The translations under genes and the position numbers were made by a program. 64,000 bases of DNA from Flavobacterium suncheonense GH29-5 = DSM 17707. Lineage in GTDB: Bacteria > Bacteroidota > Bacteroidia > Flavobacteriales > Flavobacteriaceae. The notes under the pieces are model-generated. The model ran no database searches and had not been told where the DNA came from. It saw only the letters and a program-made list of their open reading frames with translations. Where the stretch lies: the NCBI RefSeq assembly GCF_000430025.1, contig NZ_KE387020.1:1-64000 (forward strand). Reading direction: 5' to 3'. Shown here piece after piece: positions 7,108 to 16,526 of the stretch (the stretch's first letter is position 1; every line of letters starts with the position of its first letter).

Positions 7108-7333
7108 ATGGCTTACTTTTTATGACTGATTACTCAAAAGTATCATGAAAAAAAAATTCCTTCAGCTTCCGCACAGAATACCCTGCTGGTAAGAAAATGG
7201 CTTCCTACTACTCCTGAAAGCAGAGGAAATCCTTTTCAGGGCTTGTTTGCCTGCAAATAAGCCCTGAAAAGATTGCAACGTATGGCAGAATTACCATTCC
7301 AAAAAAGCCCAAACAATACTGTACTGAAAACAA
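7108..7333. other. Convergent intergenic region holding a repeat element
   Basis: The space between the lgt and secDF terminators. Apart from the repeat element at 7197-7300 I see no gene or signal. An ATG frame at 7273-7515 runs antisense into secDF and has no coding character. Confidence 0.6.
7197..7300 (+). repeat. Intergenic repeat element, copy A (with long hairpin)
   Basis: This stretch is homologous to 16406-16480. Over the first 30 nt (from ATGG to GCAGAGG) I count 22 identities with copy B, and the right flank also matches (TTCCAAAAAAGCC against ATCCAAAGAAGCC). The centre of copy A is an inverted repeat: 7232-7250 pairs with 7253-7271, 19 nt with one mismatch and a 2-nt loop. Copy B lacks this. 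It resembles an intergenic repeat I recall from Flavobacterium genomes (CCCTGATAGCAGCGGCA, hairpin, GCGGATAGCAGG), but that is memory, not a search. It may be a REP/MITE-like element or a structured RNA. Confidence 0.6.
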
Positions 7334-16209: not shown

Positions 16210-16526
16210 AATCGTTTCATTTGAAGTTTTATTATGAAACAAAATTGCGTTTTAAAGTTTTATATTGAAATCTTAAAATTTATTTTAATTACAATTTTAA
16301 ATTAATAAATCGCTTTATATGATAACAATGCAATTTCAAAGTAATGTATTTATGGTTTTGGATTACAGATTGTAATTTTCAGCTAAAAACTTTACAAAAA
16401 ACAACATGGTTTCTCCCTAGCCCTGATAGCAGCGGCACGAAGTAAAGCGGATAGCAGGAAAACGGTATCCAAAGAAGCCTGAACCTTTCGCTCCAAAAAA
16501 CCCCAAACTTTGACTTGGTGTAATTA
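16210..16526. other. Intergenic region between the amidohydrolase and asnB
   Basis: About 317 bp. The half next to asnB is extremely AT-rich and should hold its promoter, but no convincing TAnnTTTG box is visible. The half next to the amidohydrolase holds repeat copy B (16406-16480). I see no RNA gene or small ORF. Confidence 0.6.
16406..16480 (+). repeat. Intergenic repeat element, copy B (short form)
   Basis: Homologue of copy A at 7197-7300 in the same orientation. It contains CCTGATAGCAGCGGCA, a short centre (CGAAGTAA) and GCGGATAGCAGGAAAACGG. Relative to copy A it lacks the central inverted repeat. The internal similarity of GATAGCAGCGG and GCGGATAGCAGG is notable. Confidence 0.6.

Follow-up and report, generated by a model that had tools for sequence, protein, structure and literature searches.

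The window, a stretch of 64,000 nucleotides of the Flavobacterium suncheonense genome, carries two diverged copies of one repeat, both on the + strand and both members of an already known family, Flavo-1 (Rfam RF01705, known since 2010), each scoring at or above the gathering score of 42 bits. In copy A the Flavo-1 core (positions 1-76 of the Rfam model) occupies 7206-7296 with 51.3 bits, pairs 13-64 and 19-58 being broken in the Rfam alignment. Within it lies an apical hairpin whose left arm (7232-7250) is complementary to its right arm (7253-7271) with one mismatch and a loop of 2 nt, exactly as the first-pass annotation had described it, and the fold of 7203-7300 (z -5.25 as DNA, -5.60 as RNA) was equalled by 0 of 200 shuffles. 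The position of the right-hand box, 7320-7324, has decayed to TGTAC, judging by eye against orthologues, three of which (L074, L075 and L077) have GGTCC or GGTTC there, likewise by eye. In copy B (16415-16465) the same core carries only a minimal apex; this copy scores 42.0 bits, exactly the gathering score, and folds no better than shuffled sequence (16412-16512; z 0.16 and -0.15). It is preceded by an A-rich left arm with the 3' end GGTTTCT (16385-16414; assigned from the sequence and a profile of 35 copies), which resembles the left-arm consensus of copies in the same genome (profile, n=35), and is followed by a right-hand GCTCC box and A-run (16490-16500), the box itself (16490-16494) lying 32 nt past the core stem.

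The homology that the annotation had proposed for these two places (7197-7300 and 16406-16480) is not due to chance, since both reach the gathering score of a single Rfam family, and the limits it drew were approximately right, apart from a right end that lies farther out and a core confined to the coordinates given above. Also correct is its reading of a single repeat family whose ends are conserved and whose stem varies, but it overlooked that the family had been described. In the excerpt available, the 2010 account of Flavo-1, from Bacteroidetes, reads "RNA: probably; cis-regulatory: probably not; riboswitch: probably not" (PMC2864571); Rfam gives its type as Gene; sRNA, and a 2022 review counts it, in the part accessible, among the most abundant bacterial sRNAs (PMC9029176). 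According to the accessible text of a 2021 transcriptome study of F. psychrophilum, Flavo-1 matches lie sense or antisense in transcribed regions and many lie in none, several 5' transcribed regions coincide with matches, and that text holds no clue to function (PMC9723704). The literature on bacterial repeats, in its searchable excerpts and among the matches listed (most are not), mentions Flavo-1 only in the 2010 paper.

Further copies are plentiful. With the Rfam model, this genome gave 43 matches up to E 1; of these, 42 reach E 3.2e-4 or better and 31 exceed the Rfam cut-off. The 42 include one contig end that occurs twice in identical form, which leaves 41 distinct copies. Similar sequences in other Flavobacterium genomes, which the annotation had mentioned, do exist: among the matches listed, 24 such genomes hold from 0 to at least 88 copies each, high per-genome numbers being lower bounds since no more than 89 candidates were scored in any one genome, the family was detected in 26 of 40 relatives at E 0.001, and one closed genome (G010) has about 57-59 copies (two scans). 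Farther afield, plasmid p74 of the spirochaete Leptospira biflexa carries a copy (L326:2498-2556, 58.9 bits) with the outer stem GCGCC/GGCGC. Plasmids and phages gave no match at E 1e-3 in an insensitive search with a single 96-nt query; at E 10 there were seven plasmid records, including the p74 copy and a match on a Riemerella plasmid that is below the cut-off (40.2 bits), the other places being short or unread, and 71 phage records, none spanning 80% of the query. The pattern scan of viral contigs yielded one match in one scan, a real Flavo-1 copy (62.6 bits); since no more than 16 of the 147 known copies fit the pattern, absence from such contigs means little. Matches to other Rfam families were weak and all under the cut-offs of those families.

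These copies share a basal stem, interrupted by two 3x3 internal loops, and above it an apical stem that varies. This fold covaries both in 72 copies (74 minus copy A and one duplicate contig end) and in 147 distinct copies; copy A is absent from both counts because its core has decayed. The compensatory changes for which the annotation had suggested looking are strong across the 72 copies: seven basal pairs form in 69-72 of the 72 with bases freely exchanged, pair 14-63 being AT in 30, TA in 21, GC in 18 and other in 3, and pair 10-67 being CG in 45, TA in 18, GC in 8 and AT in 1. Farther up, pairs 23-54 and 24-53 form in 68 and 69 of 72 copies, and in a fixed register pairs 25-52 and 26-51 are formed by only 52 and 30. 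The basal pairs of the 147 copies comprise 996 Watson-Crick, 16 G-U, 4 A-C and 13 others, counts in which broken copies are under-represented since the position-weight detector required at least 4 of the 7 standard pairs. Tried on a set of 72 copies that included copy A, this detector recovered 65; the seven that escaped it were copy A, L055 and five of type II. Reversed sequence (1.59 Mb) yielded 0 matches under either setting used. Set within the exchangeable pairs are four purine mismatches that are kept: 15.62 is G.A in 72 of 72 copies, 12.65 is A.G in 71 and G.A in the remaining one, 17.60 is A.G in 69 and 20.57 is G.A in 67. These core mismatches are thus conserved in 93-100% of copies, in a set mostly selected by a model that rewards pairs, not mismatches, while Watson-Crick pairs vary freely, G-U pairs are rare and the middle positions of both internal loops are variable (n=72).

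The element extends past the Rfam model to a GCTCC-like box and an A-run, and an outer stem whose sequence varies closes it. The box is present in all 35 type I copies of this genome (type II, copy A and one duplicate excluded), 6 nt past the core stem in six and 30-33 nt past it in 29, and the A-run stands behind it in their profile. Among 113 other copies, orthologues included, 99 have it (77 at the short spacing, 22 at the long) and 14 have no box inside the scanned stretch. Pairing is possible between the AGC at the left end and the GCT in the right-hand box, which in type I amounts to 3 bp only (AGC/GCT). All nine type II copies examined form 5-6 bp there, with four sequences that are clearly distinct (L197 and L218 are close relatives of each other), and with shuffled right flanks 5 bp were reached in 1.65 of nine on average and in 6 at most. 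L189 has GCAGC/GCTGC. At the copy A site, by eye, L074 and L077 carry ACC/GGT instead of AGC/GCT and L075 carries ACT/GGT; L076 and the window copy are not fully paired any more. We dropped a pairing of the right-hand GCTCC with GGAGC in the 5' half, GGAGC being missing there in many copies. Compared for direct repeats, the sequences to the left and right of the hairpin in this genome are only slightly more similar within a copy (8.0) than between copies (7.4; permutation 0.008), and the idea was set aside.

A longer form of the element accounts for nine 5'-half motifs without a listed Rfam match and for four listed matches in G010. Its apical domain is conserved and of fixed length, and the internal loops and unpaired motifs are conserved as well. 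The exact apex pattern AGCGACCNNNGGAAGCT occurs at 110 places in 15 of the 40 relatives (0 in the reversed control), and exact search did not find it in the F. suncheonense genome. Forty of the 48 distinct apices found in loci are flanked on either side by a Flavo-1 core when scored loosely and with orthologues counted, and the length between model positions 4 and 70 is 133-137 nt in 38 of these, the others measuring 145 and 182. Rfam puts 10 of 17 long forms below its cut-off: when the 13 from G010 were scored directly, 5 were over it (47.9-59.1 bits), 7 below (30.8-40.4 bits) and 1 had no match at E 0.1, and among four from elsewhere L265 and L195 were over, L134 and L282 below. Two examples gave folding z of -5.9 and -8.3 as DNA and of -6.6 and -8.2 as RNA. 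In G013, 17 of 20 long-form apex matches lie on the contig minus strand, contig orientation being arbitrary. Separately, three Flavo-1 copies, each from another genome (L076:1448, minus; L077:1443, minus; L282:1555, plus), two of them copy A orthologues, contain a module GATTACTTCAC...GGAGTTC.GTGAA located 3' of the apex.

The two forms occur together at one orthologous site, that of L041, where the 30 best-matching loci include 15 with the short form, 6 with the long form, 2 with altered forms and 7 that are empty; the apical part is therefore replaceable while the core is kept. Core identity there is 95.7% over 91 pairs of 14 copies, as against 64.5% in the apex, 73.1% in the left flank (shuffled baseline 52.4%) and 90.3% in the end of the downstream gene. 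A second repeat, TTTGTCATTTCGACGAAG... (L041:1088-1185 and related loci), adjoins Flavo-1 and also matches elsewhere in johnsoniae-like genomes.

Other places bear on spread and age. Within this genome the apex GGCTGAGGNNNTCGAAG is common to L002-L005 and L007, and CACGAAGTA to L024, L025, L028, L061 and L071, all at different places, as expected of spreading subfamilies. Between gyrB and mdh, 9 of 73 loci are filled, eight found by the detector and one by eye (L215, a variant with flipped basal pairs); 12 of the 73 have an intervening gene and their sequence was examined only at its ends. In several filled loci the copy begins 1 nt past the gyrB stop and runs to GCTTC, the point at which the sequence flanking empty loci picks up again; L195 and L208 deviate on the left side. 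No target duplication was seen there, at junctions that are inexact because the empty loci differ by about 20% in the flanking genes. Between folE and cysS, 8 of 43 loci are filled, L195 with a long form directly after the stop. In both L276 and L289 the upstream reading frame has its stop codon in the TAG of TAGCCC (distance -2). Orthologues of copy A lie between lgt and secDF in four other species (G009, G188, G095 and G241), with pair 14-63 exchanged between A-T and C-G and with differing apices; copy A is thus old. In G011, the nearest relative, a different sequence occupies that place; since neither L077 nor the window copy was picked up by the detector, absence from further genomes is not established. 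Copies show no replication-strand bias in closed G010 (permutation 0.64 for all copies, 0.25 for the long form).

Does the fold act as DNA or as RNA? Among folded Flavo-1 pairs the G-U share is 3.3% (4.2% on the other strand; 4.3% in the long form), compared with 11.3% (other strand 11.0%) in 30 TPP riboswitch matches from the same genomes, of which 14 are below the Rfam cut-off and the 16 over it give 13.7%; shuffles gave 16.4% for apical parts, 14.6% for the long form and 15.4% for TPP. The low share favours a fold at the DNA level as an indication and not as proof, TPP being the sole control and A/T-rich perfect stems reducing G-U by themselves. Nor is there a sense-strand preference where both neighbours were called: the orientations to the upstream and downstream gene (--, -+, ++, +-) number 15, 10, 8 and 6 for 39 copies of this genome, 11, 6, 9 and 2 for 28 copies of relatives and 13, 6, 8 and 4 for 31 long forms, with a lean to antisense over all three sets (-- 39 against ++ 25). 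The gene calls behind these counts are crude longest-ORF calls, by which L001 and L029 fall inside a reading frame. In the accessible parts of the literature searched we met no earlier description of this lack of sense preference, of kept mismatches beside free Watson-Crick exchange, of the extension past the Rfam model and the outer stem, of the 133-137 nt long form with its conserved apical domain, or of filled and empty orthologous sites with apex exchange in place.

Our preferred reading, to which we give an even chance of being correct, is that Flavo-1 is a non-autonomous mobile hairpin of Flavobacteriaceae whose working form is a single strand, of DNA more probably than of RNA. In its favour are listed copy numbers that run from 0 to at least 88 within one genus, apices shared between places, orthologous sites that are filled or empty, copies lying right at stop codons, the lack of sense preference, the kept mismatches and the few G-U pairs, and, in the available text on F. 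psychrophilum, matches in either sense, with many outside transcribed regions (PMC9723704). The fold consists of an outer stem, formed by TAGC with GCTCC or by an equivalent that covaries, then a 3' bulge and the basal stem, its two internal loops closed by G.A-type purine mismatches, with a replaceable apical stem or domain on top. We infer an enzyme that would act in trans, recognise the mismatched base of the hairpin and insert copies into A/T-rich intergenic sites, at times exactly at a stop codon, probably without evident target duplication; any host benefit would be conjectural. Against this reading speak the failure to find an enzyme, the inexact junctions at empty sites, a core at the L041 site that is kept better than the neighbouring gene end, the insensitive null result for plasmids and phages, the lack of replication-strand bias and the antisense lean.

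What might move such an element? The genome has a RAYT, a Y1 transposase with the motif YIHQNP, which is like subclass 2.6 in the accessible part of PMC6006769. It lies outside the window at G000:C3:32840-33391, between perfect inverted copies of a different 36-nt repeat (region G000:C3:32741-33431, L104:2742-3432), and the start of that repeat, CCCGATAGCGCGG, resembles the Flavo-1 core CCCGATAGCAGCGG. It is this likeness that could make Flavo-1 a REP element moved by the resident RAYT, which we consider very improbable: only 2 of 20 regions around Y1 matches contain Flavo-1, about 1.3 and 1.6 kb from the gene, and none has it abutting; profile and protein searches found no Y1 in G004, G011, G012 and G025 (12 to at least 88 copies); and no relative of this RAYT was found in G004, G006, G010, G011, G012 and G025 (also 12 to at least 88). 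A SINE-like retroelement, that is, a folded RNA with a 3' A-run that a trans-acting reverse transcriptase would copy into the genome, is a little less improbable, as it would suit the RNA-like fold, the A-run after the GCTCC box and the lack of evident target duplication, yet RVT_1 was not found in G001, G003, G008, G012, G013, G023 and G025, with 10 to at least 79 copies (several of them drafts), and G-U pairs are few. Copy-rich genomes lacking Y1 or RVT_1, several of them drafts, therefore indicate that neither enzyme is required today; on this ground, and for the RAYT also because no copy abuts a Y1 gene, we set both aside as requirements. The Y1 and RVT_1 searches thus yielded no moving enzyme, and a search for Y2 transposases (PF04986) matched nothing anywhere, controls included, and is uninformative. 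No autonomous element with Flavo-1 ends and a gene inside was found among 12 places with a 5' half and no listed Rfam match (in G000 and G010; 9 long forms and 3 short variants).

The weightier alternative is that Flavo-1 acts as RNA, either a structured small RNA or a protein-bound UTR element, its fold selected in transcripts and its dispersal a by-product. The covariation, which includes the outer stem, speaks for this, as do the strong folding z of the long form, the core at the L041 site, better conserved than coding sequence, the compensatory change from A-T to C-G at the copy A site and, in the part of that study available, the several 5' transcribed regions of F. psychrophilum that overlap matches (PMC9723704); the long form's fixed length and its conserved internal loops and unpaired motifs would also suit RNA. 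With no sense preference, few G-U pairs, genomes of many species that each hold tens of divergent copies and, in the same accessible text, many F. psychrophilum matches outside transcribed regions (PMC9723704), we nevertheless regard it as possible and on the doubtful side. A reading without any selection would see inert old palindromes kept perfect during replication. Quasipalindrome correction is template switching in replication, and it could explain why Watson-Crick pairs change jointly and G-U pairs are rare; such switching would repair mismatches, yet the four purine mismatches are among the best kept positions, which leaves this account scarcely credible.

The annotation had left open whether the element is MITE/REP-like or a structured RNA, and as alternatives these stood, except that Flavo-1 does not resemble the REP of the resident RAYT. 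What it had named as refuting its reading, a lack of further copies or of stem covariation, did not come about, given 42 copies at E 3.2e-4 or better in this genome and strong covariation. For the mobile hairpin we offer, tentatively and as something short of probable, a more specific version: not an RNA gene but a folded-strand mobile element of a new kind, whose hairpin would be recognised through its purine mismatches and outer stem, with a long form that has its own apical domain and short forms without it, apices swapped in place while the core is kept, and movement by a single-strand enzyme that is neither a resident RAYT nor a resident reverse transcriptase. Rfam has listed Flavo-1 since 2010, as a probable RNA with no assigned function. 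Should it prove to be a mobile hairpin, each Flavobacterium genome would carry tens of wrong sRNA annotations, and the enzyme would be a new single-strand recombination system; if it is RNA, the outer stem and the long form supply a fuller molecule.

Among known systems, SINE-like retroelements are structured short repeats with a 3' A-run, both of which Flavo-1 shares; it differs in its copy-rich genomes without a detected RVT_1 protein and in its few G-U pairs. MITEs are short, non-coding and present in many copies, with filled and empty sites, and in all this Flavo-1 is like them, whereas its ends pair over 3-6 bp only, its internal mismatches are kept, no target duplication was seen and no autonomous relative was found. 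With the REP/RAYT (TnpA-REP) systems, as far as the accessible portions of PMC6006769 and PMC2817692 describe them, it has in common dispersed intergenic hairpins, many copies and a presumed mobilisation in trans; unlike them it is longer, four copy-rich genomes have no Y1 match, and in 20 regions it never abuts a Y1 gene. The closest comparison is with Flavo-1 itself as excerpted from PMC2864571 and modelled in RF01705: the window copies share its core fold and score at or above its gathering score, and the 76-nt model omits the outer stem and the right-hand box and puts 10 of the 17 long forms under its cut-off.
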